The notes under the pieces are model-generated. The model was not told the origin of the DNA. It searched no databases and saw nothing but the letters and a program-made list of their open reading frames with translations. Shown in pieces: positions 3,206-46,700 of a stretch of 64,000 nt of DNA (within the stretch, counting starts at the first letter, position 1; every line of letters begins with the position of its first letter). Position numbers and translations under genes: made by a program. Source of the DNA: Obelidium mucronatum (lineage: Eukaryota > Chytridiomycota > Chytridiomycetes > Chytridiales > Chytriomycetaceae); assembly GCA_025765595.1 (NCBI GenBank), contig JAIVFH010000028.1, positions 276,047 through 340,046 on the forward strand, read 5' to 3'.

Positions 3206-5011
3206 TCATAAAACGGACACATGTCTAAATGATAATCCACGAAACAGTAAGGCATCCCGCTGAGTGTCCACCATCAGTGCCTTCTCCTTTCGCGCGAGCT
3301 CGACCTTGTCAAAAACGAACGGTTGGTCTTCAAGTTCCGCATCTGAATCCGTTCCTTGTGCTGGAGTGCCAGTTCCTCTCTTTCGCTTCCCTAAGGAGCC
3401 TGCCGATTTCTTTTCAACTCTTGTTTTCGTAGACGCTTTTGCGCCACTTTTGGAAGTTTTTCCAGTGTTGGAGCGAGTTCGTTTTGCGGCAGGCAGCTCT
3501 TCTTCGTCAATACTCTCGTCTGCTTTGTTGTCTTCATCTCCATTCTCATCATCATCGCCGCCATCATCTTCATCCTCGTCATCATCATCACTATCCGACT
3601 CTGCAGTTTTGGATACAACAGCTGCTTTCTTGATTGATGCTTCTGATTTCTGAAAGTAAGTTGCAATGTTTCCATTGCGCATTTTTTCGGCTGGATCATC
3701 GTCAGGCCTAAAGCAGGAGGAGTATAAGAGAAGAAAGGATACAAGACGAGACTTCGCTTATTTGTGTACCATGTCACTTGAGCACAACTCCTCTCCAGCA
3801 TTTTGGCACATGTGGACCAAGAGAACCGAATCATGTCGGGGAATCCGAAAATGGGATCGATATTCTGTTTGAGCCACTTTTTGGTATTTGGGTCTGACAA
3901 TAATTTTTTCAGATCAACTTGAGAAGCTCGGAAATGACTTATTACCTCCAGGATATCCAGATCCGAAAACTCTTGTAAACGGCTTGTCAGAAACGCCTGC
4001 TTCAGAAAAGATCCAGTTTTTCATGACGCAGTCACGAATCACCTTGATATGAAAGTCGGCATTCAATAACATGATCTATATTGAAGCAACCACCGCCTTC
4101 GGCAGTATGATTCCTCCCTTGCTAATAGAAAACATCGACTACTGCGGAAGAAGCAAAGAAATGACCGCCTGCGGCGGTGGGTTCGCAAAAAACAAAACCC
4201 AACCTTTGCAAAAATACTAGCAGCAGAAACAATAGGAAACTTTGAGTCAGCCTTTGTAGTGACAGTGATACTAATACCAGGAAAATGTCTCTCAAGAACT
4301 TCCTGGTATGGTTTTTCTTTCCCAACTGTATCGACATAAATCTCAGTCACATTGACGCCCTTTTTTAGAGTATCGCGTATCAACGCGATAGTAGTATCGT
4401 ATGCTTGCTGATTCAAGTTGTATTTCGTCCTGCATGATTTCACCGTATGCCAATGACTGTCAGAAGGGATTGGACTACTACAACCGCACACACCTCCTCA
4501 GCATCCCCTCTGAAATATCGCGTGGACTGATTGCCGTAACGGCAAAGCCGATCCAGTCCTTGTATTCCGTAGTCATCATTTTCACAAACAGGGCTTCTCT
4601 GTCCTGCTCCGTCAGCTTCTTCGAGTCGTCGACGCCAATGCCCTTGACGAGCGCCTTCTTTACCAGCGGCGCGAATGCGCACGCGTAGACCATCGGGCCT
4701 GTTTGTTGCTTCTGTTATGACTCATCGCGACTCATCGCTGACTCACCCAGCACCGGGCCGCGGCCGGCCTCGTCGACGCCGAGCACAAACGGCGCGGCGG
4801 CGGCGAGTTCGTCCGCGCGCGGCATGCCGGCGTCCAGCGAGTGGTGCGTCCACGAGGCCCCGGCGTCGACTGCGACACGCCGTTCGCTAGGCCCAATCGT
4901 TGCTTCGTCCGAGGCAGAGAGGCGCAGCGGACACTCGGGCAGCCCAGCGACAAGCGCCAGGACGCGTGCTTCGCTGGATGGTTCGGGCGGTGGTTGTTCG
5001 AGTTCGGACAT
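3206..5011 (-). CDS. RNASEH2A: Ribonuclease H2 catalytic subunit A
   Basis: Removes ribonucleotides from DNA and RNA from RNA/DNA hybrids in the nucleus. At least six exons read in order on the minus strand. Exon 1 (start ATG 5011-5009) holds [13 protein letters not shown]. The next exons give [15 protein letters not shown], then [20 protein letters not shown] and [15 protein letters not shown], then [17 protein letters not shown], then [10 protein letters not shown] and [14 protein letters not shown], then [15 protein letters not shown]. The catalytic D/E of the DEAGRGP block and the aspartates of VDDSKK and YVDT are present. Splice phases fit at every junction (for example 4203/4042). The C-terminus carries [11 protein letters not shown], matching the conserved YF motif near the end of animal RNASEH2A, followed by a long acidic then Lys-rich tail that is longer than in the human protein. 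The 4043-4203 intron holds two GNA hairpins. No subunit B or C is seen nearby. Confidence 0.93.
4092..4178 (-). repeat. Two intronic GNA-loop palindromes in RNASEH2A
   Basis: Palindromes at 4092-4106 (ACCGCC TTC GGCAGT, one mismatch) and 4164-4178 (ACCGCC TGC GGCGGT) lie inside the 161-nt intron 4203-4043. On the transcript strand the loops read GAA and GCA. They belong to the same family as the arrays at 25.1, 30.1, 42.3 and 44.0 kb. Confidence 0.85.
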
Positions 5012-5204
5012 GAAATTGCAAAATAATGAGAATAATAAATAAATAGAGAAAAACAGGAAGAAAGGAAGAGGCACGCGCTTTTCGGTACTTTATATTGCGT
5101 GGCGTGCGAAACAATGTCCACGAAACAATAGCTGGACATTGTTGCACAGAAAAAAGCATATTTGCCTTCACTCGCAACTCTGGAAAAAGCCTATCGAAAC
5201 AGGA

Positions 5205-8200
5205 ATGGGCGGCAAAAACCAAGATGCGGAATCCGCAGTTTCAAAATTGAAAGACTTGTTGCTGGGCGAAACTACAAATACCATGCCTTTCGCTGTCCGC
5301 TTCAAGATTCTCATTTCAGCAATCGTCCCAATTACTTCAATTATAGTTGTTGCTGGACTCTTGTCCACCGCCGTCAATGAATCCTCTCCCAACAAGGGCG
5401 AACATGGCCTTCAACTACCGCGACTACTTGTCAATGGATCAGGAAGCTCAATGATGGCCAACACTTATTGGCGCTCAATGGCCGTGTTTTCTTCGTACCT
5501 CCAATTACAGCAATCGCCCTTTGAACTGGATGCTTCGTTTTTGGCTGCCGGTAGTGGTGCCGGAAGGTCCGACTTTTTTAATGCCTTTGGTCTTTTTGGT
5601 GCAACTGATTCGGATGTATCTGCATCCGATTTGAAATTCTTTCTTCCTGATACGAATAATGAAGGGTCTGATTCTGGATATAGCAGCGCCACTAATGTGA
5701 CGACATTTGTTGATTCGAGAGCTCCCGCTCATTTGGGCATCATGTTGTTGCCTACTGTTGCTGGTGCTCTTGCAATTGTTCATAACCTTCCGGGATTGCC
5801 TGATGGAAGGTGGGTCGACTTTACCGCTGTGGTGGTGTTCTATCACCAACATATTTGCGTTTTTGCGGGCTTTCTTACCCGCCAAAGTTATGCCATTAGA
5901 CAATACATTCTAAACACATTTCATACATTAGCCAACTCGCCCTAAATGCAACCGTACTGGGTGATATATTTTGTGGCGCGATCGAGTATTGGAACTCATC
6001 AGCAATCCAAGCCTTGAACCCAGGCCTTCCTTTACCAGCAGCCCAAATAAAACTAATTGGCCGAGGAGATTCAAGCGGAAGTACACAAATCTTTACAAGT
6101 TACTTATCGAAATACTCGACCAAATTTCAAAAAGCGGTCGGCGCTACTAGTCTCCCTAAATGGCCATCGTCCGTGATTCTCGGGAACACTGCCAGTGAAC
6201 TGATATACGTTTCTTCAAATATCAAGTACTCACTCACCTATGTGCCAATGGAAGCGGTTTCGCAGGCGAAATCGCTGGGGCAGACACCTCAAATTACGCG
6301 TTTGTATAATTCTTTGCAAGAATTAACGATGCCGGACTCTCTTGAATCGGTCATCAATGCAATGCAGGCTGCGGCGCTTAAATCGCCATTTAGTCGACAT
6401 GGGTATTTAGATATTTTTGATATTCAAGAAGCCCATGCATATCCAATTGCGTTGATGTCCTTCATCTTGATTCGAGAAAACTATTTTTACTTTTCTCCTG
6501 GCTCCCAATATGATTGCGACCGAATTAAAGCCATGGTTAACTTTTGGTACTTTTTGGTGAGATTTTTTTAGGTTCACTTACAATTCTATTTGAAACTCAA
6601 AGCTTATACAACATACTAGTTTACAGACACATATGTGATTAACGAGAATTTAAACCAAGGATGGGTTTCCGTCTCTGGAGATCTCTTGAAAGATAATTTA
6701 AAGCGTCTTGCGTTAGTCACTTGTAATCGAAAGAATATCATGGACGATTTGAACACTGATTTCGAGAGAAAGGCATTTTATGCAAAGAGTAATTTAACGT
6801 TTCTTTTTTTCCGGTATTTATTTTGTACTTTTTGGTTGATTCTGTCTGCACAGGAAAAAAGTACTATAATTGGGACTACTCAATCAAATTTTGGGATAAC
6901 CCATCGAAATTCACTACATCGCAAGTGGGATCATCCATGTACTTGATTTACTACGCATCTCTTATTCTCTGTAACGTGATCCCCTTTGCATTGAACATGT
7001 ATCAGTACCACAACAAGGGCGACAATAGTAGCCACTCCAAAAGCGCAATCCGCGCCAGCTTAAGTATTCGAAGCGACTCGGTTGTGGTAAAGAGCGTATT
7101 ATGCGACCCAGTAACGGGAGAAGACATCAGCAACGAAAACGATGAAAACGACGACGACACCAAAGAGGAAAAAGCGGCCAAAAGAGCCGGGAAACTGAAA
7201 TTTACGTTCCAAAACCGATTGGCGATTATAACACAATACGTGACATGCTTTCAAATCCTGTATCTCTGTCTGAGCAAATCGATTGTGATTCAGCATGATA
7301 GTATTTATTTGGATGTGATTTCGTATTTGGGAATTATTCCGGATTGGTATCCGTATTATGTTTTTTTGCTTATAATGGTGGTATTGTGGTTGGGGTGTAT
7401 GCTGTACGCGACGTATATTTACGGCGTTTTGGAGACTTATTATCCAAGGAAATTGCTTACAATGACGCATTTTCATGCGTTTCTTGCGGATTTTCTTCCA
7501 GTAAGGCAGAAATTCCTTTATTTCACTCTTCTTTTGATACTTTTTCGTGTATTAGAACTACGCTGTTCTCATGTACAGCCCAAGTGTAGAAATGTTATCC
7601 AAAGTATTTGATTGTCGATTGTCAACACATGAATGGATATTCCACAATAGCTTGGATGACATTTGCTTTGTAGGTCCACATTGGACAATGTCAGTGTTGT
7701 CCCTTGTGTTGGTGTGTTTGTTTACGAATTCTGTGGTTCGGTATAGCAAGATCTTGAAGGTTTGGAGTATCTCATCTATTTTTTTTGCCTGTTTAATCCC
7801 GTCCTCTCGCCATACAGCTGCTTCGAAAACATTTCGATTTTAAGGATAAAGAGTGGTGTATTTACTTGGACTCTGTCTCGAAAACATTTATTCTCATATT
7901 GTATTTCAATATTGGAAACAAGGAGTTTCTTCAGACAACCACTGCTTTACTCGCGATTCTCGCCTTGTGCTCGCTCATTGGAAAGCCAAATGACATATTC
8001 TGGTACAACTACTTTCGTGGTGGGATGTACGCCTATTCTGCTGTGATTTGCGCAGTTATTTTGGCCATTGAATTGAAAACGAGTATTTCGGATTATCCTG
8101 GGCGGGAATCTATTGGTGCTACAATTGGTTTTGCTGTTCTATTGGGAACGAGTTTGTTGTCTGTGGTCACGTACTTGTTTATTGCCAGTCAGTATAAATT

Positions 8201-9230
8201 GGGAATGAGTCGAAAGGAGTTGAAGAGAAAGGAAGAGGAGCTGAAGAAGTTTTTCGCAGCTTTTGGGTAACGCTTTTTTTTTAATTTTCGAACAAAAAGA
8301 TTGTAACAGGGGAAATCACAGAGATGAGGAATCACAGGAGGCTGAATCGGCTATGGTTTCTGAACAACAGCAACATCAACAACTTGAACTGGGCGGTGGG
8401 TCTGTCTTGTCAAGCAGAATGAATTCCAGTCACATGAACAGTCAAAGTCTTGCGACTTTTGAACCGGGGCAGTTTTCATCTGTATGTTTTTTTCAGAGCA
8501 CGTCTCCTTTCTTCTGTGAAGTTTGTTGATGAATCTCGTGTATTGCAAAATAGACGCAATGGCGGCAATTTGACTCAATGATTCAAGCAGCCAAGAAGAT
8601 TGACTTGCTGAAAAAGGAAGAATACAAATTCATCAAGCTGGCAATCAAATATGAAGGTAAAATGAATTTGATAAATTGACCTCGCCAGCTCCAATTGAAT
8701 GGGAACAAAAAAAATTGACAGACCCGATAATTCCTCTAATATTCTCACGCTCCGGAAGAAACCTGAATCGTTTCGTTGATCATTTGAAATTGAAAGTGTA
8801 TCAGGTTTTGGCAAAAGACAACACGATTCAATCGACGTGGTCGAAACCAGCTCATCCCCTTGTGGGTAGGCAGATTATAAATAACCCTACCGAACGCGGT
8901 CCGAGTCATCTGACTCCCTTGGTCAACCATACCATCACTCATAGTTCCCTGCATTCATCGACTCCATCTTCGCGGCCATCACAACACCGCACTTCTCATT
9001 CGCAATCTCAGCACGTTATATCTCATCTTCATTCAATCAAGCGCTTATCAATGGAACCAGTGGAGTCCCGAATTTCGCAAGGAGTTCATTCTGCCCCATG
9101 GACACCAGCTTCACCAAGTCGACCCATTGCAAGATGGTTCAAACAACCCGGGATTGGGACCTCAGAACCAGCGATTGCGACCAGATCATGGACCATCATT
9201 GTCGACGCGTCATTCGCGCCGCGTTTCTGA
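5205..9230 (+). CDS. PstS-like phosphate-binding ectodomain fused to multi-pass membrane domain, copy 1
   Basis: Start ATG 5205 opens a short cytosolic N-terminus and one TM helix (FKILISAIVPITSIIVVAG). About 370 residues that match bacterial PstS follow: GSGSSMMANTYWRS, LLPTVAGALAIVHNLPGL, TVLGDIFCGAIEYWN, ALNPGLPLPAAQIKLIGRGD and SSGSTQIFTSYLSKYS. The last corresponds to the anion-binding R-x-D-x-S-G-[ST]-T loop. Exons are about 5205-5810, 5933-6556, 6627-6788, 6855-7500, 7557-7759 and onward. Roughly seven more TM helices occur between 6940 and 8200, with the signature YSPSVEMLSKVFDC before TM5. A charged segment KEMKRKEEELKKFFAAFG-like and a conserved tail (DPIIPLIFSRSG) end at about 9230. 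The cellular role is unknown; a phosphate or anion sensor at the plasma membrane is an inference. Tandem with copy 2. Confidence 0.85.
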
Positions 9231-9536
9231 AAACTTGGGCGCGATTGGTGAAACTGATTCAAAGCTCGGTGAAGATTCTTGAATACAATTTATAGTAAAC
9301 AAATATAATGCTGCAAAGAATTATAAGCTACATTTTGGTATTTGCTTGGTTGGCAGATGGGTGCAGGATTTTCGCAAAAGTTCCCATTGTTTGTGAAGTC
9401 ACAAATAACAAGGCACGCGCGTCACATCCCTGCACATATTCCCAGCCACAATGGGATTCTTTGTCAGGGAGTTACAACAAAAAACGCGTCATCTATCGTC
9501 AGGGTTCAGTCTGCAGCTGCATCGGCATCAGTCAAT
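9231..9536. other. Intergenic spacer between tandem receptor copies
   Basis: About 300 bases between the stop of copy 1 and the ATG of copy 2. An open frame reaches upstream from 9342 into copy 2, but only the part from ATG 9537 resembles the paralogues. No other gene or strong regulatory motif is recognised. Confidence 0.5.
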
Positions 9537-12500
9537 ATGGGCAGATTGAGTGAAAAAAGCTCCACGATATCAAAACTTCGAGACGCCATCGTTGGAGATG
9601 ATACAAGTGGTTTGCCATTCTACCTCAGATTCAAGATTGCTTCAGCCGCGGCTGTTCCCCTTGCGATAATTGCAGCAATATGCAGCCTTCTGTCGAGCTA
9701 CATCAACGAGTCGTCGCCAAGCAAGGGAGAGCACACTCTTCTACCGCACCTCCTAGTGAACGGATCGGGCAGCTCGATGATGGCCAACACGTACTGGCGG
9801 TCGCTGGCGTCCTTCTCGGCCTACCTCCAGCAGCAACAGTCCCCGTATGTGTTGGATTCCTCGTTTCTTGCAGCGGGAAGTGGTGTTGGCCGCTCTGATT
9901 TCTTTAACGCGTTTGGTCTCTTTGGGGCAACTGATTCCGATGTTTCAGCATCGGATTTGAAATACTTTTTGCCCGACGACGGCTCGGGGTATTCCAATGT
10001 TACTAAATACATTGATCCGAGGGCGCCGGCGCATTTGGGTGCGCTGCTGTTCCCGACGATGGCGGGCGCTCTGGCTGTTATCCATAATGTGCCATGGATT
10101 GCCAGACTGGAAGGTGTGACTCATAATTATTTGTTTACTTGTTGGTTTTGCGTTATTAACCAATTTATCAACAGCCAATTGATTCTGAATGGCTACTGTA
10201 CTGGGCGATATGTTCTGTGGGGCTATCGCATGGTGGAATGCGACAGCAATCCAAGAGTTGAATCCAGGCCTTCCCCTGCCGGCCGCGCAAATCAAACTGA
10301 TTGGACGTGGAGACTCGAGTGGAAGTACTCAGATATTCACTAGTTATTTGGCAAAGTACTCAAGCAAGTTTAAATCCCTCGTGGGTGCTTCAAGTTTACC
10401 CAAATGGCCGTCCTCCACAATTCTTGGCAACACTGCCAGTGAATTAATTTATGTCTCCTCCAACATCAAGTATTCTCTGACATATGCTCCGATGGAAGCG
10501 GTTTCCCAAGCAAAGAGTATTGGTCAAAATCCTCAAATTGCCAGCCTATATAATTCAAAGCGGAAAATAACGGCTCCTGGCGATATGCAATCGATTATTT
10601 CAGCGATGGATACTGCCGCTTTGGAGGCTCCATTCAGTCGTCACAGCTATCTGAATATTTATGATATTGCTGCAGTTGATGCTTATCCAATTGCACTCAT
10701 GTCTTTCATACTAATTCGAGAAAATTACTTCTACTTTTCTCCGGGCTCCCAATACGAATGCGATCGAATTAAGGCGATGGTGTATTTTTGGTACTTTCTG
10801 GTATGAAAAACAAAAACACCTACAACTTGTATTTTGACTCTTTCTTTCCAATTATTCTTTAAGTTTACGGACGCTTCTATTGTGAAAGATAATTTAGCTC
10901 AGGGTTGGGTGCCCGTTACAGGAGACATGTTGAATGATAACATGAAGCTTTTGGAACTAGTTACTTGCAACCGAAAGAGCATAATGCAGGATTTAAACAC
11001 TGATTTTCAGCGGAAGGAATATTATGCCAACAGTTAAGCCTACGAGGCCAACCTCCGTAAAGAAATCACTAATTAAAAAATAGGAACCAAATATTATGAA
11101 TGGGATTTCGCAATCAAAATTTGGGAGAATGAATCAAAGTTTAAGACTAGTCTCGTGGGCTCTTCGCTGTACTTCTTGTATTATGGCGTTCTCATTCTCG
11201 CAAATGTAATTCCCTTTGCTCTGAATATGTTGAAATACCATTCAAAAGGAGAAGATTACAAACAAAAGAGTCTTCGATTAAGCACTGGTATAAAAAACGA
11301 TTCTGTGCTTGTGAACAGCAGAGGTGAAAACGCAGATGACGATGAGGACGAGGAGGAAAAAGAAGAAAAAGCAGCAAAGAAAGAAGGAAAAGTCAAATTT
11401 ACCAGCCAAAACCAGCTGGCAATAGTAACTCAGTTTGTAACGTGTTTCCAAATCATATATCTATGTCTGAACAAGTCAATTGTGATTCGTTCGAACGCTT
11501 ACGTGGATGCAATTTCATATTTGGGATTACTACCAGACTTTTATTGGTATTATGTTTTGCTGTTGGCGATGGTGATGCTCTGGTTAGCGTGTATAATCTA
11601 CACAACGTTTCTTTATGGTCTGCTCGAAACGTATTATCCTCGGAAACTTATCAACATGACGCACTTTCACTCATTCTTGGCTGACTTTTTGCCAAATTTT
11701 GCGGTTGTCATGTATAGTCCCAGTGTCGAAATGTTGTCTAAAGTTTTTGATTGCCGCTTATCGAGTCACGAATGGGTTTTTCGGAACAGCCTCGAGGACA
11801 CATGCTATACAGGACGGCACTGGATGCTTTCTGTACTTTCTATTATTTTAGTATGTAGCTTCACAAACTCAGTTGTGCGGTATAGCAAGATTTTAAAGGT
11901 ACGCAAGCTGACAACTTGATGCGTGAAATGTTTATTTAATTTATGTTCTGTTCAGTACCTTCGAAAAAACTTCGATTTCAAAGACAAGGAATGGTGCATC
12001 TACTTGGATTCAGTGTCCAAGACATTGATTCTGATTTTGTATTTCAACATAAGCAACCAAGAATTCCTTGCCACAACAACTGGCATTGCTCTTTGTTTTG
12101 GCTCTTTGTTCGCTAATTGGCAAACCGAATGAAGTTTTCTGGTACAACTACTTTCGGGGTGGGATATATGCGTACTCGGCATTGATTTGTGCCACGTTAT
12201 TGGGCTTTGAGGCAACGATAAAACAGTCAGAGTACCAGAAGCGAGTGTTAATAGGAGACAACTTCACTTTGACAGTGCTGGTGGTCACTTGCGCTGCTTC
12301 TTTGTGCTCATATGCATATATTGCCGGACGGTTCAAGTTGGGAATGAGTGAAAAAGAGATGCGAAAGAAAGAGGAGGAGTTAAAAAAGTTCTTCGCAGCA
12401 TTTGGGTATATCTCTACTTATAATGGTCTTTTTTTATGGCTAATTGCAATTCATAGAGATGAAGATGTGCGAGATGGAGGTGATGGGATTCCAGAGATAC

Positions 12501-13394: not shown

Positions 13395-13420
13395 AAGAAT
13401 AAAGTTATAATAAATCACAA

Positions 13421-23046: not shown

Positions 23047-26000
23047 CTAAGCCATACTATAACCACCAAGACTCACCCTGGATTTTCTATCCATACTTGG
23101 CCGCACAGGAGGCCACACGTCTCTATCTTCATCCGAAAGACTCGCACTCGTTTCATCCCGAGCAACGTCGTCAAACTCGTCGTCTTCCTCAAACACTACA
23201 ACCTCCTCAATCTCATCATCGTCGTCACCACCACCGCCGCCATTCCCGGCACCAACTTGATCCCGATTCTGCAACAATGTAACATCATCTCCCGTCAAAT
23301 CCATCAAACTATCCTCAAATTGATCAGCCCCTTCTTCCTCTCCCTCCCCTTCACCACCGCCACCACCAATCGAAACTTCTCCCACATCCGGTAACTCATG
23401 ATAAACACTCTCACCACTTTTCCCTCTTCGTCCTCGCCTCATACTACTAGTTGCACTCGCCACGCTGTTCATTCGACCACGAGAGATGGGCGCAAGTGGC
23501 ACAGTCGCAACAACAGCGCCAGAGGCATCGACTATCAGCGTCGTTTGGACTGTTACCGCCGCCGCTGCTGATTGTGCTGAAGTGGACGCGGATTTCAAAC
23601 TCATTGTGCTTGAACTCTTCAACATGCCTCCTTTCGACGTGCTCCTACCACGACCGCGACCGCCCCCTCCTCCTTCACGCGCGTTTCGGTGTAGAGAGCT
23701 GGATCTACCGCGAGGTCTTTCAGTGACGCTGATGGTGGTGTTTGTTGTTATGGGGGTCTGTTCTTGTTGTTGTTGTTGTGGAGTGTAATGTGTCGTGGCG
23801 GAAGGTTGTAGTTCGGCGTAGGACATTGTTGGGGTAACGGCTTTCGAGACACTGCGTCCACGTTTTCGAAGGTGTTGGGGTGGCAGGTCTGTGTATGGAA
23901 GAATGGCTTCTTCGACTTCTTCTGTCATTATGGTCGCGGTTGGTGTTGCTGCAGTGGTGGTGGTGGTTGTTGTTGTTGGTGTAACTGAGCCAGAAGATCG
24001 TGGAATGAATTGTTGTGGGTCTATGGGAGGGGCGGAAGGAGATGTTGGGTTGATGCATGTGAGGAACGCCATGGGGAGTATTCCTTGGATCTCTGTGGAT
24101 TGATTGACTCCAAGAGGCCCAACCTTTTTTTTTTAAAAAGAGTAATAGAAATTAACTGAAGGGATATTGATGCGTCTCACTTATAATCATAAATGAAAAA
24201 AAAGGACACCCACCATCATCAAAAATCTTTTTGATTCGAATAATGTTTCCAATGGATATCGACAACTCGTCTTTAAACGCAGGTTCGTATCCCTTAATGA
24301 CCACGAAAACATATCCTGGAATTTCCCATCTCTTTCTCCTCCGTGAACTGCCACTTCCAGTCAACCCATGCGCCACACTGCTGACCAAAGAGCCCACAAA
24401 TCGACTTGGCGCACTACTGTCGTCCCATAAGGACTGCGACTTTGCCAATTTAATGATTGGTTTGTGAAGATTGGCAGTGTAATGTTCAGGCGTTGTTGCT
24501 GAGTTGTGGTGGTGGTTATTTCCTACACGAACGGGCGATGAGCTGGAGCGAGAATGTTTCAAGTATTCTGACGCAGCATCCATAGTCTGTGGACTGGACG
24601 ATCTTTTAATATCGGCATTTTGCACAACGCTCCCAGGGATACTATTTGGTGTGGTTGACGAAAAGTGGACTGAAGGAGGAACAACCACAACATCACTTCT
24701 GGCATTATCCAAAGTCGTGACTTTCCGTCTTTTTTGACGCAATAAAAAGAGGGATCCAATAGCGATAAACAGTTCTCGAACACCTTCCAGCACTTGGTGC
24801 ACACGAACGATTCCTTCACTGCCTGCATCCAAATCAGCGACCGGTTTTCCATCCAAAATGCAATCATCGCGATAATCAATAAGGACGCGACGAAGGACGC
24901 GTGTCAAGAGGGGCCAGACAATTCCCAATTCAATGATTGTTGTATAAGTGCGGAGTGTTCTGACAATGACAATGGGCCATTGAAGTGGGTTGACGATATT
25001 GAGAATGATTCGAGGTACCAACGGTGGTTTTGGTGGCACAATTGGTTTGGATGATTGGAACTTGTGCAGTTCTGTGATTGGTATGAAATGAATGGTTTAA
25101 GTATATGGTAACAAAAAATACAAAGCCTGCGGCTGGGAAGCGAAATGTAAAAAAAAGAATACACAGCCTGCGGCTGTCAGATGATTCCACCAACGGTGGA
25201 CATGAAATGAAAAAAAAGAATACACAGCCTACGGCTGTGAGATGATCAAAAAAAAAGAAACGAAATTAAAAAAAAAGAATACACAGCCTACGGCTGTGAC
25301 AGACAGCCAACGGCTGTGACAGACAGCCAACGGCTGTGAGATAAACAGACATACAAACACACCATTAGAACCCGAATCCAAAAGCCACAATTCCTTCCCA
25401 AACAACAAATCGGCAGGAAAATTATAACACTTTATGCCAACTTTCAGAACAAGATCCCGATCGGCCGCATGATTGAGAAGAAAAGTGACAGGAGTGGTAC
25501 TAGAAGAAGCAGCAGTTGTAGTAGTAGTAGTATTTGTAGATGGATTGAATACTTGTAACTGTTGCATGACGAAGAAAGGTTAGCAACACCAAGCCCATAG
25601 TGACACTAAAACACAGTATACAACCTTCAAGTAATCTTCATGAGGAATAGGATGCGACATCGACTTGAGCCCATTCGCCAAATTTGCCCGATCTAGTAGA
25701 CGTCTTGTGTGAAGCGAAAGACACCATACGCAACAACATCATGTTTCAAGCAGCCCCAAGGGACCCCCGAGAGACTACAAGGAGACGATCAAGTAACAAA
25801 TGTTGGATCAGCATGTGGGACGAATACAGGCGGCATGATCAGACAGAGACAGAGACAGAGAGGAGAGTGAGACACACACCTGTTGATGTGCACCAGCAGG
25901 GCTTCTTCGGCCAGCGGGGCCTGCGAGATGGAGACCTTTGCCCTGAGACTCGGCTCTGCGTGCTGCGGAAACAGCGACAGGGCGACGACGAGCACGAGCG

Positions 26001-27643: not shown

Positions 27644-30600
27644 TCACCCACTGCCACCTCCAAAAACCTCTTCCGCCAACCACGCTTCATAAGTCCTCAT
27701 AAAGTAATCATCCACACCGTCTCCATGAAGTCCAGACTCCACAACGTACCGGTTCTTGGTCTTGAGTGGTGTCGTGTTGAATTCGGGGACAATGCAAATC
27801 ACTCGGGCGTCTTCTTCTTCTTCCTCCTCTTCGCTGTTGTATCCCCGTCCTTCTTCTTGCTGCTCGCCGCTATTTAGTAGCAGCGTTGTTGTTGTTGATG
27901 GAAGTGGTGTCGCTTGTTGTTGGTGGTGGTGGCACTGTTGTGATTGGTTGCATCAACATGGTTTCCAAGTCATCGTTTGGATCAATGGGGTTGTTGCTGT
28001 TGCTGCTATTTGAAAGTAAGTTTGAACTGCTGTTTGTTACAGTTCCAGAAATCGGATCAATGCTAGCGCTACTTTGTTGTTGTTGTTGCTGTTGTGGTTG
28101 TTGCGGCTGTGGTTGCGGTGGCGGGTAGATTTCTGGGTACACGCGATGGTGATAACATGCAATCAAAGACCGTAGGTATTGTTCCTGTGCCTATACAAAA
28201 AAAAATATAGTTCACGTTATTCTTGACAACGTGGACTCAATCTCAATTTTTTTTACCAATGCCTCATCTCCATTCACATCTGAATCCCCCGACAAATACT
28301 CTTCACACAGTTGCGGCCTCAACTGCATATAAATCAAGGTGATCACTTTCATATTACTCGACCGCCACTTCTTGCCCATGAATGGGATCTGGCTCTTTAG
28401 AAGCTTCAAGGCGTATAGTTGGAGCGCTGGGTTGGGTACTTTGATGATTCGTTTCAAGACGGCGCTGGCTTTCCATTGCACTAGGGCCATGATTCGGTGC
28501 GTTTTGCGTTTCGTGATTTTTTGGAGGATTCGGAGGAGATTGATTGTTGTGTAAAAGTTTCGCCATGAGCCTGGGATTGTGGTGGTGGTGGTGGTGGTGG
28601 TGGTGGTGGATGTTGTTGTTGTTGGTGCTTCTGATGGCTTTTCTGGTTTTTAGCTTGGTGGTATCATCACGGTTCAATTGGCTTGCAACGTAAAAGAAGC
28701 TTTTTGTTTTTGGTGAGGATTGGGTCATTCTCTCTGACAAAACAAATTAATCAAGTGGCCTTACTTCAGTTCCTGAGGCTCGTCGCGGTCTTTCAACCAA
28801 GCAGATCCCATTCCACCATGCGATCCACCAGCACCACCACCCCCCACCACCAGCAGCAGCATTGGGATTCAAAGAATCTGACCTTTCGTTATGTTGCAAT
28901 CCAATATTGGCTGTTGTTGTTGTTGCTGTGCCACCGCCACCGCCATTTGTTGAATTGACAGAAGCAGCCATTGCGGCAGCCATTGGATTCTGAAACCAAG
29001 TGCTCAACATTTTCAGAATCAAGATTGCGCAGTTGTTGTCCACAAGTAGTTGGCATAGATATTCAAACTTGAGGATTTCTGTTCAGATACACATCATTAA
29101 AAAAAACATAACGACCCATAGAGAAAACCCAAAAAAGGAAATAAAAAATGAAGACAACAAAAAAATACCATCACACTTGACAGCCTTGAGTAAAAGAAGA
29201 ATGATGGATGAAATCGCTTTCGTCACAACTTCCTTGTGTCTATTCGCGTCGGCGATTTCCTAGTGATTGTCTGCCAGTAGTGGGTGTCGCTGGTTTGCGT
29301 TGATTCTGGCTTCCCAGGTTCCTCCTAGTTCCTATTGTTATTTTCGTTGTTTGGTCAGAATCTCCAGCGAGAATCAAAAAAAAAACAACTTCTTTTACAT
29401 TGCCCAAATTGACAGTAGTACAACAAACGAATCAACATCCCACATGTAACAATTATATTCGGTGACAAGAATCGCTAGATTGAAAGGACACGTCAGAGAC
29501 CCACAATTAAAAAAAGCAGTATATATAAACCGAAAAAAAAAAAAAAACCCACATATAAATCCTCAACACGATCCAACCGCACACTCTCAAACGGTTTCTC
29601 ACCACCACCACCACCACCAGTGCTACTGCTACTCTTGACTCGCGACGCACCTCCAAAGTCATACCCTTCATTCCCACCCCTCTTCTTGACTCCTTCCAGC
29701 TCCACCATTTCTCGCGACATTTGAACTTCACGTAGTCCAATGTACATGTTATCTTGAACGAGTTCTACGGCTTCTTGGATGGCGGTGGGCATGTACCCGT
29801 CCGACACGAGAATCGGTTGAACAATGGATTGCGTCAGTCCGCCCAGGGAGCCGCCGTTCACGAGAGCGCGGCGAGAGATTGTGGACAGTGGGTCGGGGAT
29901 GAGTGGAGTGAGAGGGGATGGCATGAGGGATGTGATTGATGGGGTGTAGTAGGCGGGGTATTTCTGGATTGTGAGGAGGTTGAGGTTGTGTAGGTCTTGA
30001 GGCGTTGATTTGGTGTTGAGTTTGTCTGTTTTTTTTTCGGTGGTGTCCACTGAGCGAAAATGAGAAGAAAAAGAAAAAGAATTACAACGCCTTCGGCGGA
30101 TGTATACCGCCTTCGGCGGTCGCGTACCGCCTACGGCGGTTGTGAACCGCCTTCGGCGGTATATTCCAAAAAGCAACTCACTATTCTTTTTAAAATCTAC
30201 AAAAGGTAAACCTTCTCTCAATCGACCGTCAGCTTTCAACAAAGCCAAACAGTCATCTCCTCCACCCGATGCATCATGTTGAACCCCCAAAGACACAAGC
30301 AACACTTTTTGCAACAACAAAAGCAATTTCTTGACTGGATACGACTTTCGATTTCCTTCTGCCAATAGAGAAACCAAATCAAATAAATCAATGGAAAGAG
30401 GGACAAGTCTGCAAGTGGCCTTGACGTATCCATTATTGTTATTGTTGTTGTTTGCCCCAGAAGAAGAAGAAGCTGGAGTCTTTCCAGTCAAAGACGACGA
30501 CGCATCATAAAGAGGGTAATCATCACACGCGCAAATTCTCATTCGCCAACAGTGTGAAAGAGTCTGGATGAATCATGTTGAATTGCACCAGCAAAAACAA

Positions 30601-35892: not shown

Positions 35893-35994
35893 CTTGTTTT
35901 GAAGGAGTTGAACCTTACATTTCAAACTGTGGCAAAGTCACCTCGACACACGGCGACTCAACCTGTCGATTTAACTGGAATCATCGACGCGACC

Positions 35995-36610: not shown

Positions 36611-36616
36611 CAAGCA

Positions 36617-36624
36617 TATAAAAA
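36617..36624 (+). promoter_or_regulatory. TATA box of 83-aa small-protein gene
   Basis: TATAAAAA 52 bases upstream of ATG 36676, on the + strand. Same distance class as in the other family members. Confidence 0.6.
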
Positions 36625-36675
36625 TAACTCCGTCCATTCAAACAACCAAAAAAAAGATTCCACCAAAAAAACCAA

Positions 36676-36927: not shown

Positions 36928-37197
36928 ATCGTGCCTGACGTATACATACCCCTTAAATACCACACCCCTTATATTTTCTTTTGGCCCTTATTCATTCTTC
37001 CCACTTCGACACGAACTACAAATAAACTGAACAAAGCAGAATGCTTCAGTGCCAAACTGTGTTACCAGAATCAAAACAACTATATTTTTTTTACTTTCGC
37101 GTGTGACCAAAAAACTTCTACGAGAACAAGGAAAAAATGACAGTAAAGAAGGAAGGAACAGTCTCCTCCCTACTCCGTTTGAAATTTTCAAGGCCTC

Positions 37198-39992: not shown

Positions 39993-40162
39993 TTTGTGTT
40001 GGTTTGTGGATCAAATTGGTTGTTTTACAAGTGCGATTGGAAAACCAGAAAAAGTGTCTACTCAGAGTCTTCACAACAAACTACAAAAGAAAACAGAGAA
40101 AGGAAGGAAAAGCAAACTAAAAAAAAACACAACGGTTTAAAAAAAAACAAAAGAGCACTCTT

Positions 40163-43100
40163 CTAACTGTAGTGAGTATCAACATGCTCGTGCTCCTTCA
40201 GCCCCAAGTTATCACCCACCCGCTTTCTCATAACACGGTTAATCTTTTGGTACAAAGTACTGCGGTTAACATCATGAGTCTGACGAATCGGGTGCTTCTT
40301 CCACCACCCAGCGTCCAACTTCTCCTCACCACCAGTCCAAAGCACTCTCAACAAGTCTCTGCTCCATCCATGCCAGTGGTTGCGATCCGTGCGGATTTCG
40401 ATATCTTTTCCGTGAATGTCTTTGGCAACCACGAGTTTCACTGTTTCAGTCTTTGTGCGCTTCTTTTTCGTGATTGGGTCGATAGTGACAGTGTCGCGCT
40501 CTGTAAAGACAAAGTATCGGGATGCAGTGAATTTGTTTTGCTTCTTTTTTGGTGCGGCGGTCTTTTCTGACGCTGTTGTTGTTGGGTCCAGTTCTTGTTC
40601 TCTATCGGCTTCTTCTTGGGTCCAACCCAAGTGTGTCAAAATGTGTTTATGGGTTCGGTCGCTCATGGATTCGTCCATTTCTGTTGTTTTTTGGAATGGA
40701 TGTGTGAGCAAAGCAATTTTTAAGGATACAAGAAGAAGAAGAAGAAGTAGAAACAAAAAAAGTGAACACTCAACGAATAAGCAAAGACGCAAACTGGATT
40801 CTCCAAACTCTCTTGGCATCAGACGCAATAGAAACCAAAGTCTCAGCCAACATGGCAATCAAGACGTTAAAGAGTACAAGAACCGTAACAAAAGCGTACA
40901 ACATGTACAAGAACTCTGTGAATGCAGGAATACGAGCTTCACGGAAGTCTTCGAATTCTTCTTGAGCCACAAAAATGAATCTTTTTTTTTTCGATGAAAA
41001 TTTTTTTTTGGTTAGTTGAATGGCAAGCCACCCAATACGACCAAAAAAAAAACGCACCGAATAGTCCACAAAAGAGCACCAGCAAAGTTGTTCCAATCGT
41101 AGACTGGAGCAGCGCCATTGGCAGACTCGAAAGGAACGTTTTGCATTTGCAAAAAGAGACCACAGGCGAAACCGACAGTCAGAACTGAATACAAGGTCAT
41201 CCAAGCAAAGAAATCTTCAAACATCATGCGTCTGAAAATAAGCAAAAGAGGACCCAATGCTGTTTTTGAAAAGAGTTGAGATGGTTAAATAAAAAACATT
41301 TAAACAAACAAGCTACAATATATATATATATATAATATATATATATACGTACTCTCAAATCCTTTGGCAAATTCAAGAATGTAGAACCATCCCCAGATGG
41401 CACCAAATCCAAAAACAACATTCTCAGCATTCGCAACAATCTCGTACTTGTCATGTCCCAGAATAGCAGCCAGACCCCAGCGCAATACAGGAATCAACCA
41501 AATAAAGACAGCAAACATCCATTGAACAGTGTTTTCAGCCGCACCGTATCCACGAAAGTAACCACCACCTTGAACACGAAGTTCCGCAAATTCAGCACTG
41601 ACAAGAATGATTGTTCCAATGACCGAAGACAGTTCAAAGACACCTCGCAGAATCGGGTGACGGTTTTCATCAGAAATAGAGTAGTTTCTGCGGTCATCCA
41701 ACGAATTGGGTTGCAACGCAATCGTAAAAGTAACGCAAATAACCAAAAAGAAGGTCAACGCCATTCTCCACAGGAACCGACTGCGTCCGTAGAGAGCCCA
41801 CTTGATCTTCAAGAGCGATTCCATCAATGGATGAGAAAGGATTTCCTTGTCTCCGTTTTCAACAGCGATTTCAATTGCGGATTTGGAGAATCGTTCGAGA
41901 GACTTGTTACCGTCCTTGAGCTTCTCGGCAAAGGATTCCGCCTTGTCCGTGTGTGGCTGCAATGGATCCAAATCATCCAGACAGATTCTGTATTGACGCA
42001 CCATACCGAATTCCCAAATGATGTCCTTCATTGCTTCCAAGGCTTTGACGTGGCCTCGAGAGATTCCGAGTTGGTATGCAGTCAAGTGCTCCTTGTTTCT
42101 GGCTTTGGAAATGTCGACTGGGATGGGGATTTTTCCGTTGGAGCGGGACGCGTTGCGGATGTCGATTTCGTTGCGTTTTTTGAGGTAGTTGAAGAGTTTC
42201 ATGTCAAAGTTTCCGTGGTATGCCATGACGTGAAGGACGTTGTTTCCTGTTTGTAGTAAGTATGGGTTGTTTAGAAGGGGTCACCGAAGGTGGAAGATGG
42301 TTTTGTACGAGGTAATTATGTGGCGAATGTGTAAGTAAGAAGAAAAGAAATACACTACCTTCGGTAGTGTTGAACGTGGTGATGGACCGCCTTCGGTGGT
42401 GATATACCGCCTCCGGCGGTGGGACCCGCCTACGGCGGTAAGATCTCGCCTTCGGCAAGCAATACAAAAAAAAAAAAAAAAAGAAATACACCACACCACC
42501 TTCGGTGGTGCTGTACCACCTTCGGTGGTGATGTACCACCTTCGGTGGTAATGTACCACCTTTGGTGGTGATATACCGCCTCCGGCGGTGGGACCCGCCT
42601 ACGGCGGTAAGATCTCGCCGAAGGCGAGCAATACAAAAAAAAAAAAAAACAAACCGTATAAATCCACCAGAGTAACATCAGCACCATTCTCAACCAAATA
42701 CTTTACAGCCTCAAATTTGCCATTTGCGGCAGCAAATTGCAAAATAGTCTGACCATAATACAAGATACCCTTATCTTCATCCTTCAAGAATTCGGTACCA
42801 GAAACGAAAGGTTCATTAATGAGGGCACCATTTTCGACCAAGAGTTTAACCAGAGAGATATCATCCTTGTCATGGTCAGTACCCGCATTGACTACGGCAA
42901 CATGCAAAGCGGTTTCACCGTAGTAACTGTATAGATGGAGAGAGTGTTTCAGTAAGTGTGTGTGATTGAATGAAAATTTTCAAGAAACAAGACACCAAAT
43001 TGGATTGGAAGGAAGCGGACAGATGAACGCAGATACGAAAAAGAGAAAGAAAGAATAAGAAAGAAAGAATAAGAAAGAAAGACTACCGGTGTCGCAAGTA

Positions 43101-43538
43101 CGTCTCGTTGACCAGCGACGGGAAGCGACCCACGATCCAGCGCACCAGGTCGGCGTGCTTGCGCAGAACCGCCAAGTGCAGGATAGTTTCGCCCTCGGCG
43201 CCGCGCTCAAACTCGCCGCGCGTGGCGCCCGGGCTCGACCCGAACGGCTCTTCGGCAAAGCGCCTTAGGGCGTCCAGACTGCCCTCCCACGTGGCCTGCC
43301 ACAGCCCGCCGTCCGCGAAGAGATTGATTTGGTGCCGCGTGTCGCCGCCGCCGGAAACGTTGCTGAGCGACCGCTGCTCGTCGTGCGCGTGCGGCACTGC
43401 GAGGCCCTGCTGCCGGAAGTACGCCAGGTCGCCGTCGCCGTCGCCGTCTTCGTTCGACGCCGCATTCGACCCGCGGTGCTCCCGCTCGACGATGCGGTTG
43501 AAGTTGGCATCGAGCCGCTCCACGTCTTCGCTCGACAT
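40163..43538 (-). CDS. Ankyrin-repeat TRP-like cation channel, copy 2
   Basis: Tandem paralogue of copy 1, ending 170 bp from it. ATG 43538 (MSSEDVERLDANFNRIVERE), a GD repeat from a GTCGCC run, then ankyrin units (GETILHLAVLRKHADLVRWI, YGETALHVAVVNAG, YYGQTILQFAAANGKFEAVK, LTAYQLGISRGH) and CLDDLDPLQPH. KIKWALYGRSRFLWRM and six TM segments follow, then a pore-side block YDWNNFAGALLWTI. After the last TM (YAFVTVLVLFNVLIAML) comes a tail with HWHGWSRDLLRVLW. At least seven introns. One intron of about 400 nt (42245-42650) is filled by GNA hairpins, and another (41283-41350) holds an AT run. No frame break is seen. It reads head-to-head with ARMC2 across 177 bp. Confidence 0.84.
41328..41352. 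repeat. AT dinucleotide microsatellite in channel intron
   Basis: (AT)n run with one interruption inside an intron of channel copy 2. Confidence 0.85.
42282..42628 (-). repeat. Array of about 13 intronic GNA-loop palindromes in channel copy 2
   Basis: Palindromes at 42282-42292, 42352-42370 (8-bp stem ACACTACC/GGTAGTGT), 42386-42400, 42406-42420, 42426-42438, 42446-42457, 42494-42510, 42515-42529, 42534-42550, 42555-42569, 42575-42589, 42595-42607 and 42614-42628. Stems alternate ACCGCC and ACCACC with matching arms. Transcript-strand loops are GAA, GGA or GTA, except AAA at 42555 and the two end elements (42282, 42614), which read TTC. The order CTCGCC-GCCTAC-GCCTCC occurs twice (42406-42457 and 42575-42628), matching the module in ARMC2 intron 1 in inverse orientation. 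Confidence 0.9.
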
Positions 43539-43715
43539 TCGTTTTTTGTTGTTTGTTGTTTGACTTTGTTGTTTCCAGCAAATCTCCACTTTGCACTCGG
43601 ATTCTGGGACAGAGTTCTAATGCATCAATCATGGATCTACCTTGACCATTCAAATCATTTGATTCCTTGACTGCTGAAAAAAATATAGATTAGTTCTGAA
43701 CTGACAATTCTATAA
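43539..43715. promoter_or_regulatory. Shared divergent promoter region, channel copy 2 / ARMC2
   Basis: 177 bases separate the two divergent start codons, so both transcripts must initiate here. No TATA box is obvious. A bidirectional promoter is inferred from geometry only. Confidence 0.5.
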
Positions 43716-46700
43716 ATGAACAGCAACCTCCTCAGTGATCGCACTACTACTACTACAACTAGACACAGTACTTCGAATAATAATAATGATGTCGATGCTG
43801 CTAGAATTCTTTCGAGGAATATCTCACAGATTGTTAGAGCTGGTTGTGTAAAGTCTCATCCATTGGATGGTCAAGTTGTTGTTGCTCATGCCAGAGCTTC
43901 GCTTAAATATCCTACAAGGCCTTTTACTCCTGCCGTTTTTGATTCTTTTGGAGGTGTGTATTTTTTTTTCATCACTGCATTACTGCCGAAGGCAGTGTAT
44001 TCTTTTTTTTTTCTTGATCGCCGAAGGCGAGATCTTACCGCCGTAGGCGGGTCCCACCGCCGGAGGCGGTATATCACCACCGAAGGTGGTACATCACCAC
44101 CGAAGGTGGTGTGGTGTATTTCTTTTTTTTTTTTTTTGTTCTTCTTGCTCGCCGAAGGCGAGATCTTACCGCCGTAGGCGGGTCCCACCGCCGGAGGCGG
44201 TACACATTCTTGTTTACACTACTGCCGAAGGCAGTGTATTCTTCTTTCTTTTCTTGATCGCCGAAGGCGAGATCTTACCGCCGTAGGCGGGTCCCACCGC
44301 CGGAGGCGGTACATATTCTTATTTACACTACTGCCGAAGACAGTTTTTTCGCCTTCATCATCGCCGTAGGCGATATATTCTTTTTCTCTCCTTTTGGTGT
44401 TCGTTTGGTTCGTTTGACAAACACTCAAAGGCCTTAAACAACACTCAACTTGTACATAGCAAGTCCATCAAGAAAACTGCGGCCTTCAATTCCATCAGCT
44501 AGATCTCTACACCCAAGACGGCTGGATCCGCTCAACTTGACCACTATCAACAAAGCTGAATCAACAACAACAACAACTCCAGATCCTCAATCCATCATCT
44601 CCTCCTCCCATGAATCAGAATCAGCAACTGCTACAAGTCCATCACCACCTCATATCCCTATACCAACAACAACCCTTGCAACCCGTCTCTCTCAATACAA
44701 ATCATCCAAAAAGAAAAATACCCCAACAACCACAAACTTTGATTTCCCCGAGTCTGATCTCGCACTCTCAAACACAAACACTTCTCACGATACAGTATCC
44801 CCCTTCACAAAAGACCTGCACACGTTACAACACATTCTCACTTCCTTCACATCCACATTCCATCATCTTCATACAACAGCCCATCTCCCACAAGTTTTAC
44901 AAACTCTCCAAGAAACTTTGACAACAGTCAACTCACTCTTGAAACGGCTTTCATACCTCCGAACAGTCGATCAACCTTCAAATGAATACCCGAAACTCGT
45001 CCTCAAGAAACATCGAGACTCGGTTGTAGAGTCCTTAATGAAGTGGATGACTCTTTCTGAATTGATTTCAGATTTGGATTCTCGCGTGCAGGTGGAATTG
45101 GCTGTGGGTGTATGTGGGTTCGTGATTCGATTGACGAGGGATGATCGAGTGCTTGGGAATGCGTTTAAACTCTTGTTTAAATTGAGTAAAGGTGTGGGGA
45201 ATGATGCGGCTTTTGGACGGAATGGTGTTCTTGGTGAGATTACTGTTTTTTTTTTTTTGTTTTTTTTGTTTTTTTTTTTGAAACTCATTGATAAATTCAA
45301 GATGGAATACTGAGCTATTTGAAGCACTTGACGCTGGACAATCGGCTGCTTATCCCGCATAAATGTGATATGGCCATCTATGCAGTTGCAACGTTTAAAA
45401 ATTTGTCGAGTGGCGGCGGAGAGTTGTCGTTTGAATCTCTTTTGGCAGCTCTGCCTGAGACACCACCAGAAACTGTTCCACTAAACTCTACCAAACAACA
45501 ACCACAACAACACGAAAGCATTGTCATCGTACTGTCCAGAATCATGTGGTTCTTGATGAATGTGAGTGCATGTGGTTTTCTTCACTCATTCATTTATTTT
45601 TTGATACACATAAAGCATCCACTCCCAAGCTCAACAACACCACTGGCAACAAGTCAACCACTTGCTCAGCAAAAACAGCATCGCGTCGCGCAAATCACAC
45701 AACTCATGATCCAAATCACTTCAACAATCCGGAACCTCTTGTCACTGCACCCCACCGAAACACACCAAAGTCTATGTAAAGAGTTTGTTTTTGTCGATGC
45801 TTGGAATGAGACGCAAAATGCACCTGTCGTCGGCAACAAGTCTCTTGAACAGCTGCGACGCGATCATCATCATCGTCAAGAATCAACAGCAATATCACCT
45901 TTACAGATTCTCGTTTCAGCGTTTGACTCGCAGAGATTTGGGTCCACGTGTGGGGAGAGCAAAGAACTGATGCTGAATGTAAGCAGGATTCTGAGTAAAG
46001 CTTCGTTGGATCCGGAATGTTTGCGGGTGCTGCGGTGTTGTAGTGGCGGTGGCGGTGGCAGTGTTGGTAAAGGGGCGACTGGCGGCAACGTGGGAAGTAT
46101 TGATTGGATAATGGATACTGTTTTCCAGTTTCAAAACAAAAAGGTGAGGGGGTTTGTACCTTATCCTATGTTTTTTTTTTTAAACCCAAAGTAAAAATTA
46201 ATCAAAAAAGATTAAACAACAGCCATTACTCCTTCGGCTACTATTTGTCCTCGGGAATATAAGCACACCGCCAACCACAGAAAGCGACCTTGAAAGTAAC
46301 TGCGATTTCGAAGAAGCCGAGTTTCGTTTGTTGAGCGAGTTCCACAAGTACAGCGGTGATCTTGTAGCTCTGTTTTGGAAGTACGGGAAAAAAGTTTTGA
46401 AGTTGCTTCGAAATGAGGCTGGAGAATTGACGAATGTGGGTGCTGGTGGCAGGTATGCTGAGAACGATTCGGGCCTTGATGACAGTGGGAGTAGTAGCGG
46501 AGAAGATGAAGAAAGTAGGATCGAGGCTACGGCAAGGATAAAAAAGAAGCGCTCCAGTTCGAAATCAAATGAAAAGAGTGAAGATTTGGCGGTGGATTGT
46601 GAGGATGTTTTGGTCAAGGTGACAGCTTTAAACAACCTGCTTGACAACCCATGTCTAATCCAACCGTGATCTATCAAACAAAAATAAGATTGTTAGACTG

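Follow-up and report, generated by a model that had tools for sequence, protein, structure and literature searches.

Arrays of GNA-triloop hairpins that look like a nuclear family of short polar repeats in predicted introns of Obelidium mucronatum

Hairpin arrays in the window

Here we describe a family of short palindromes found in a 64,000-nt stretch of DNA (hereafter the window) from the chytrid Obelidium mucronatum. Perfect palindromes with a stem of at least 5 bp and a 3-nt loop number 35 in the window when the inner pairs are CC/GG; the same rule gives one with GG/CC, none with GC/GC, four with CG/CG and at most ten with any remaining dinucleotide. Under a looser rule, 40 elements fall into five clusters (4092-4178, 25122-25337, 30086-30160, 42280-42628 and 43856-44374), which bears out the number of about 40 hairpins and their locations as proposed from the letters alone in an earlier, sequence-only reading. 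The same reading held that nearly every loop is GNA on the transcript strand, and this is the case for 33 of the 40; the others are GTT (three), TTC (two), AAA (one) and ATT (one). The ATT element (43857-43869) lies inside a predicted exon and is not counted as a family member. The features are as follows.

4043..4203, minus strand: predicted RNASEH2A intron, 161 nt, two hairpins
4092-4106: hairpin in the RNASEH2A intron, one mismatch, transcript-strand loop GAA
4164-4178: hairpin in the RNASEH2A intron, transcript-strand loop GCA
25072..25362, minus strand: predicted intron of a gene first read as SH3, seven hairpins at 25122-25337 (stems mainly ACAGCC/GGCTGT; loops GTT three times, GCA twice, GTA twice)
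30050..30181, minus strand: predicted Far11/N1221 intron, 132 nt, four hairpins at 30086-30160 with a 20-bp period (loops GAA three times, GTA once)
42247..42654, minus strand: predicted intron of an ankyrin/TRP-like gene, 408 nt, 12 elements at 42280-42628 (loops GAA five times, GTA twice, GGA twice, TTC twice, AAA once)
43954..44459, plus strand: predicted first intron of a gene read as ARMC2, 14 family hairpins at 43982-44374
44003..44140, plus strand: 138-nt query module, a T-tract and four hairpins (TCGCC-GAA, CCGCC-GTA, ACCGCC-GGA and ACCACC-GAA)

Intron location is supported for three of these genes by domain matches that run across the spliced junction: RNase_HII and the solved RNase H2 subunit A for RNASEH2A, the N1221 domain for Far11, and ankyrin repeats for the ankyrin/TRP-like gene. 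The introns of the genes read as SH3 and ARMC2 were called from reading-frame continuity alone, the strand of the former from its reading-frame score alone, and the intron of the latter may end at 44459 or 44555, among other positions; the submitted stretches of both genes gave no Pfam match. The array in the gene read as ARMC2 repeats a module that it has in common with the neighbouring divergent gene. Tandem Repeats Finder (TRF) reports repeats of 20-bp and 109-bp period in the window, within which Rfam gave no match at gathering score.

Abundance and pairing across the assembly

The form ACCGCC-NNN-GGCGGT occurs 2343 times in the 48.3-Mb assembly and the reversed pattern seven times; 2139 of the 2343 have a GNA loop when read on one of their two strands (control, 0). 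The genome-wide excess that the sequence-only reading implied is thus found, with counts far above those of reversed patterns. In a sample of 33 clusters, each read in its majority orientation, the loop is GNA in 288 of 342 CCNNNGG cores and TNC in 17. The family therefore follows the rule for GNA mini-hairpins, namely GNA as the loop and at least two G-C pairs closing it. CGCC-GNNA-GGCG, a pattern that takes in GNRA loops, shows no enrichment (64 copies, control 92). Its members are clustered: 200 kb taken from 20 places contained eight CC/GG triloop palindromes, two of them of the family type. Extrapolation from the 1.1-Mb contig C1, which carries 12 clusters (five being single elements by the search pattern), gives an estimated 520 family loci in the nuclear genome.

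The arms vary together, as had been proposed for the window, and they do so genome-wide. Among the 288 GNA elements, pair 4 is Watson-Crick in 277 (shuffle mean 207, maximum 219) and pair 5 in 257 (shuffle mean 204, maximum 216), and pair 3 is G-C in 270. Across the genome, pair 4 is paired in 2304 of 2401 elements, with 165 fully compensated changes and 97 mismatched, all obtained by subtracting pattern counts. Over pairs 3-5, G-T mismatches are not in significant excess of A-C (21 and 16; p = 0.51). In near-identical duplicates, 70 arm differences set a pair against a mismatch and one is compensated.

Loops also change between recent duplicates: exact flips with near-identical flanks account for four of 101 differing comparisons. 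Flips thus occur yet stay rare, so insertion direction alone is an insufficient explanation of the loop bias. ViennaRNA returned identical energies for ten loops, in RNA mode and in DNA mode (six 7-mers remained unfolded in DNA mode), and the model therefore cannot discriminate GNA from TNC.

Intron placement and folding of the transcript

For the 33 sampled clusters, introns were predicted from sequence with simple gene models. Twenty-nine clusters lie inside predicted introns and four are intergenic or without resolved placement, so that the earlier description of the hairpins as confined to introns is better replaced by an intron bias. The GNA majority is on the transcript strand in 28 of the 29 intronic clusters (sign test p = 1e-7), and the bias extends beyond the window, where 24 intronic clusters comprise 23 sense and one antisense. 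A protein match crosses the spliced junction in 15 introns (14 sense, one antisense). For individual loci, the Ndc80 exon pair has no PDB match, although DUF5595 does span its junction, POLE2 has a PDB match and no Pfam match, and locus L027 has no Pfam match. Of 28 clusters called clearly by an automated frame test, run on both strands, 25 agreed; five further clusters were unclear. Clear exceptions are an intergenic array (L025:2955-3372) and an antisense intronic array in L039; orientation is mixed at C5:630401-631058, C3:724953-725107 and C1:201293.

The arrays begin close to the donor: in 14 introns, counted from the predicted 5' splice site, the first hairpin starts between +9 and +85 nt, and in ten of them between +15 and +26. 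The motif GTRAGT precedes CGCCGNAGGCG at a distance of 5-30 nt in 66 cases (none in the reversed control) and the TNC form in 21 (one in the control), with chance expectations from spacer base composition of about 13 for the GNA form and about 53 for the TNC form. The direction of this donor test matches the prediction, yet several of the matches have a donor in common or may sit inside arrays, and we give it little weight.

These observations bear on a function at the RNA level, in which hairpins would be selected in the pre-mRNA, where they would compact swollen introns, drawing the branch point closer to the 5' splice site, or mask cryptic splice sites, with GNA being the preferred loop in RNA. 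Such a function predicts the sense orientation and the compensated arms as well as a selfish repeat does, and a GAA triloop of GNRA-like form occurs in RNA, for example in an ATP aptamer (excerpted text of PMC12550061). Compared with shuffled sequence (12 shuffles each), folding is much stronger in nine of the 14 array introns (z -4.8 to -15) and moderately stronger in three (z -2.8 to -4.0), but the Hus1 and Ndc80 introns fold no better than shuffled (z 0.0 and -1.0). The donor-to-branch path is 4-19 nt in ten of the 14 and below the shuffled mean in 11, one of which differs by just 1 nt; however, the path is also short in shuffled introns (means 15-33 nt) and is longer than shuffled in the Hus1, arginase and POLE2 introns. 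Since GNNA is unenriched and G-T shows no significant excess, although RNA should tolerate G-U, neither favours selection for RNA stability. The scarcity of compensated changes in near-identical duplicates and the clear array between genes also speak against an RNA-level function. The splicing role suggested by the sequence-only reading stays a proposal: most array introns fold well, but the loop and mismatch counts do not favour it. We consider an RNA-level function unlikely.

Polar units, dispersal and origin

Each unit is polar, consisting of a GNA hairpin and a pyrimidine-rich spacer on the same strand, where T makes up 51% of the spacer and C 23%. In the 33 clusters, hairpins are mostly spaced by 20 nt and less often by 34-36 or 40-45 nt, and they are present throughout the arrays rather than being confined to the ends, as the terminal inverted repeats of a MITE or other TIR transposon would be. 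The 138-nt module has at least 133 matches on at least 31 contigs (identities from 74% to 100%, match lengths of 34-143 nt), a lower bound as 40 of 108 candidates were scored. One match, in inverted orientation, is C28:318422-318688, the array at 42.4-42.6 kb of the window. All 2036 cross-array alignments of at least 50 bits (1017 when each pair is counted once) have the same direction relative to the GNA strand, which argues for an intrinsic direction of the element. Few of the 2036 go beyond an array by more than 12 nt: 184 do so upstream, before the first hairpin, and 151 downstream, after the last. Because the similarity mostly ends at array edges, the host introns look unrelated. An earlier proposal of a mobile GC-cluster-like element with orientation preference is thus upheld in its dispersal and single polarity, from which mobility is a step that we infer.

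Units lie head to tail, as in minisatellites, and the tandem period near 20 bp would suit ordinary minisatellites that arose independently and are palindromic by chance. This is highly improbable, as one core and one loop class recur genome-wide with a single polarity across arrays, and a multi-hairpin module common to at least 31 contigs contradicts it. Equally improbable is an introner-type transposon, in which entire introns, splice sites included, would be copies of one element. Introner elements of Amoebophrya, as described in the excerpted text of PMC7789003, are whole introns with inverted repeats at both ends and direct repeats at the exon borders; they resemble the present family in being intron-dispersed repeats whose inverted repeats are able to form hairpins, and sense orientation in introns is found here too. 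By contrast, the arrays described here consist of small hairpins nested in introns with mostly unrelated ends: similarity mostly stops at array edges, donors and acceptors differ among loci, and no homologous intron ends and splice sites common to all copies are found.

Another possible origin is a strand-specific DNA process. The GNA strand would be the exposed non-template strand during transcription and would form a stable C(GNA)G DNA mini-hairpin that drives repeat expansion, for example by Pol theta-type stem-loop primed synthesis; alternatively, a mini-hairpin on the template strand would block RNA polymerase and so be purged. The near-invariant core, two G-C pairs and GNA, equals the smallest of the extraordinarily stable DNA mini-hairpins, a structure that also shields 3' ends against exonuclease (excerpts of PMC4686876), and the loop is GNA on one of the two strands in 2139 of the 2343 ACCGCC elements. 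Human Pol theta can use two terminal base pairs of a stem-loop as the primer for extension, an activity that may explain repair events with inverted repeats (PMC11292364, in part). However, GNNA mini-hairpins belong to the same stable class (PMC4686876, same excerpts), yet are unenriched here. The G-C constancy of pair 3 indicates that the arms are not arbitrary copies, and a single ancestor therefore accounts for them better than snap-back arising de novo each time. Moreover, recent duplicates carry point mismatches and no fresh perfect arms. Family A polymerase matches occur at three loci, with Pol theta and the mitochondrial enzyme not told apart. On balance a DNA process of this kind is unlikely, slightly more so than an RNA-level function.

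By appearance, the arrays look like a dispersed, intron-swelling nuclear family of short non-coding polar repeats. From sequence comparison we favour, at about an even chance, a selfish hairpin repeat that is copied as DNA and specifies no product itself, with splicing as the filter on where it sits and which way it points. The family would spread as its units are duplicated in tandem and its modules are copied to ectopic sites, and well-paired hairpins would be copied or retained in preference to broken ones. Introns may provide a permissive niche because a short intron can lengthen in one part, between its 5' splice site and its branch point. The direction of an array would be set because the polar unit places pyrimidine tract and hairpins on the transcript, an arrangement that splicing would tolerate, the opposite direction usually being purged. 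Three observations sit less easily with a selfish repeat: loop orientation is kept although exact flips occur, some places mix orientation, and the non-array part, at 141-255 nt in six of the 14 introns, is itself beyond ordinary intron size. More tentatively, and with a probability that we put well below even, the family could be a self-propagating, intron-expanding, non-coding repeat that acts by nucleic-acid structure alone, with transcription direction dictating the strand. The active unit, promoting its own copying, would then be the C(GNA)G mini-hairpin, either in the pre-mRNA or on the non-template strand where this is exposed. Such a family would represent a new way for introns to grow and a mobile hairpin of a new class in nuclear genomes.

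Among the closest known systems are the Allomyces elements, which are double hairpins in structure. These lie in mitochondrial DNA and are regarded as mobile (Paquin et al. 2000, cited in excerpted text of PMC7218506); both cases concern short hairpins of an early-diverging fungus for which mobility is proposed. The present elements differ in being single triloop hairpins that form nuclear arrays within spliceosomal introns and keep to one strand. Their host genes are of nuclear type (RNASEH2A, ARL2, POLE2 and others), and COX1 has no match in the assembly. Palindromic repeats proposed to be mobile in Fusarium, Lobosphaera and Volvox are organellar, and the excerpted part of PMC7218506 describes no spliceosomal-intron strand rule for them. 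Stable DNA mini-hairpins follow the same GNA loop rule and two-G-C-pair minimum, but concern oligonucleotides and aptamers in the excerpts of PMC4686876; the genomic repeat family described here would be a natural setting for that structure.

A literature search, with most subscription journals outside its scope, found no prior report of a genomic repeat family with a GNA core and nothing in print like strand-fixed intronic hairpin arrays. To our knowledge, discussion of short selfish hairpins has centred on organelle genomes, and that of intron growth on the insertion of transposons. Newly described here are the polar unit, the multi-hairpin module on at least 31 contigs and the start of the hairpins near the 5' splice site. 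The family makes the spread of a repeat by structure alone, and its tolerance by splicing, testable questions. A pattern of tandem GNA hairpin pairs also matched eight stretches of prokaryote contigs and none of the viral contigs. In the present assembly, arrays on contigs C19 and C216 carry locally amplified GTAA loops.

Abundance of the hairpin family

In the window, located at C28:276047–340046 of the assembly, palindromes of at least 5 bp around a triloop number 35 with the inner pairs CC/GG and 0–10 with any other inner dinucleotide. A less strict definition finds 40 elements, grouped in five clusters and close in number to the roughly 40 palindromes of the sequence-only reading; GNA loops, read along the transcript strand, occur in 33 of the 40 elements, as that reading had held for nearly all of them. 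The family is not confined to the window. Across the assembly (48.3 Mb, 694 contigs), ACCGCCNNNGGCGGT occurs at 2343 places (7 for the reversed-pattern control), its GNA-loop version at 2139 (control 0), split 1170 to 969 between the two strands, the ACTGCC stem at 99 (control 0), the ACAGCC stem at 66 (control 1) and the CGCCGNAGGCG form at 4265 (control 145). The four-base GNNA loop showed no enrichment across the assembly (64 against 92 for the control). Twenty 10-kb stretches picked irrespective of hairpins held 8 CC/GG triloop palindromes, of which 2 are family-like. On contig C1 (1.116 Mb), places of the CGCCGNAGGCG form make up 12 clusters, split where the gap exceeds 1 kb, with 5 being single elements; extrapolation from C1 alone yields an estimate of roughly 520 family loci genome-wide. 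Nothing comparable was found in the open-access literature searched, most subscription journals being outside its scope. The STIP1/HOP-like exon in the window has its best named relative in the chytrid Rhizoclosmatium globosum (identity 59%, covering 86% of the query). A COX1 search of the whole assembly gave no match, and the assembly thus seems to lack mitochondrial DNA.

Intron placement and strand

We sampled the five window clusters, loci L025–L034 (places on contigs C1–C4, taken in order from the GNA-loop listing) and L035–L047 (13 further places chosen from the GNA-form, ACTGCC and ACAGCC genome listings). The sample comprises 33 clusters, of which L032 and L041 are single hairpins, and 342 CCNNNGG cores; in each cluster's majority orientation the loops are GNA in 288, TNC (GNA on the opposite strand) in 17 and others in 37. 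At C5:630401–631058, which lies outside the sample along with many other listed places, hairpin orientation alternates (+, −, +) in the genome listing.

Placement was scored automatically by joining open frames through GT–AG introns on both strands, with loop orientation unused. For 17 of 18 clusters an early version matched the GNA strand; the final version decided clearly for 28 of 33, and 25 of these 28 agree with the GNA strand (sign test, p = 3e-5). Two of the disagreeing clusters, L038:33 and L047:23, lie at the locus end, without upstream sequence, and adjoining exons place both as sense (GNA on the transcript strand). The third, L025:2955–3372, is a real exception, apparently between two plus-strand genes. 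It is a large array with GNA on the minus strand and an adjacent GAAA-loop copy. The five clusters without a clear call were judged by exon reading, L025:4597 staying undecided; L033:4286 and L041 agree in the final test yet were tallied as undecided.

In the final tally, made partly by eye, 29 of the 33 clusters lie in predicted introns, 28 sense and one antisense (L039, ankyrin gene; p = 1e-7), with uneven support among the 28. The sequence-only reading had limited the hairpins to introns: this holds for these 29, and the remaining four (two in L025, L033:4286 and L041) are intergenic or undecided. The strand bias relative to transcription that it described was upheld.

Support at predicted junctions for the 28 sense clusters
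Domain or structure match spanning the spliced junction, 13 of 28: RNase_HII/RNase H2A, Ank, N1221, Metallophos, GH35, DUF5595, Hus1, PH, SET, Thoc5, Arf/ARL2, Avl9, arginase
One-sided recognised domain or conserved exon, 10 of 28: L030 ClpS; L031 ABC_membrane; L037 WDR75; L046 SRAP; L047 POLE2; L038 AA_permease_2 (twice); L043 second array, Avl9; and, below the cut-off, L034 ANF_receptor (weak, E = 0.009) and L036 GH9
Frame continuity alone, 5 of 28: window SH3, window ARMC2, L027, L028 second, L044

In addition, L047 has a separate intron holding one hairpin, likewise sense, whose junction is crossed by a POLE2 match; junction-spanning support thus covers 15 introns, 14 sense and one antisense (p = 0.001). 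Most spacers of the antisense array (L039:395–692) have none of the T-tracts usual elsewhere in the family, and the element that comes first on the transcript has the sense direction. At L036:648–852, adjoining the glycosyl hydrolase family 9 match, a locus-specific stem (CATGCC/GGCATG) alternates with ACCGCC stems.

Unit structure and spread

Measured between centres, hairpins lie most often 20 nt apart (79 cases); distances of 34–36 and 40–45 nt form additional groups. T makes up 51% and C 23% of the spacers on the GNA strand. Cross-array alignments scoring 50 bits or more number 2036; all share one direction, and most end at array edges. The unit is therefore polar, and the introns that host the arrays look unrelated. 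With scoring of 40 of the 108 candidates, a 138-nt multi-hairpin module from the window ARMC2 intron has at least 133 matches on at least 31 contigs; the neighbouring divergent gene holds an inverted copy, again sense there. We regard minisatellites of independent origin as highly improbable. The best-supported reading, in which our confidence is about even, is a selfish, DNA-copied, polar hairpin repeat filtered by splicing.

Across 14 well-defined introns, the distance from the donor to the start of the first hairpin ranges from +9 to +85 nt (+15 to +26 in ten), and the intron sequence outside the array measures 57–93 nt in eight and 141–255 nt in six. The arrays would have grown within ordinary short introns, in the donor-to-branch-point stretch, a scheme that the eight fit well and the six fit less closely. 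Inspection by eye at L029 and L047 showed ordinary introns of about 60 nt. That the arrays are introners seems very unlikely.

Arm pairing, folding and the loop rule

Among the 288 GNA cores, selected without requiring outer pairs, Watson–Crick pairing exceeds the shuffle maximum at pair 3 (278; shuffle mean 263, maximum 271), pair 4 (277; 207, 219), pair 5 (257; 204, 216) and pair 6 (219; 176, 192), so the arms do vary together as first proposed; a degenerate pattern across the assembly gave 2401 elements with 97 mismatched at pair 4 (2401 minus the three paired types of 2139, 99 and 66) versus 165 compensated changes, related copies inflating both the core and the pair-4 counts. Duplicates with near-identical flanks within one array gave 101 differing and 166 identical comparisons, which are not independent; the 101 include 70 arm differences of pair versus mismatch, 1 compensated change, 49 loop substitutions and 4 exact loop flips. 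These comparisons disfavour a fast arm-to-arm repair mechanism. A strand-specific DNA process is, in our judgement, unlikely.

Folding was compared with 12 shuffles for each of 14 array introns. Nine fold far better than shuffled (z −4.8 to −15) and three moderately better (z −2.8, −4.0 and −4.0); the Ndc80 and Hus1 introns fold no better than their 12 shuffles (z −1.0 and 0.0). The donor-to-branch path is shorter than the mean of the shuffles in 11 of these 14 introns, one of them by just 1 nt, and longer in Hus1, arginase and POLE2. Mismatches at pairs 3–5 are G–T in 21 cases and A–C in 16 (p = 0.51), so RNA-specific wobble tolerance is not clearly visible. An RNA-level function of the hairpins is rather doubtful.

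GNA and TNC loops did not differ under the energy models used. Loops of the form GNA or GNNA, combined with two or more G–C pairs, are reported to make extraordinarily stable DNA mini-hairpins (PMC4686876), and GAA triloops are reported in RNA also (PMC12550061). Stability alone is insufficient for the loop rule because GNNA is hardly used in this assembly; we infer that descent from one ancestral hairpin explains it.

Locally amplified four-base loops, mostly GTAA, sit on the same CGCC stem at C19:229977–230670 and C216:30238–31124. Family A DNA polymerase matches occur in a similar layout at C10:377877–378653, C414:8117–8906 and C454:5962–6741, which may represent a duplicated gene, a mobile element or assembly duplicates.
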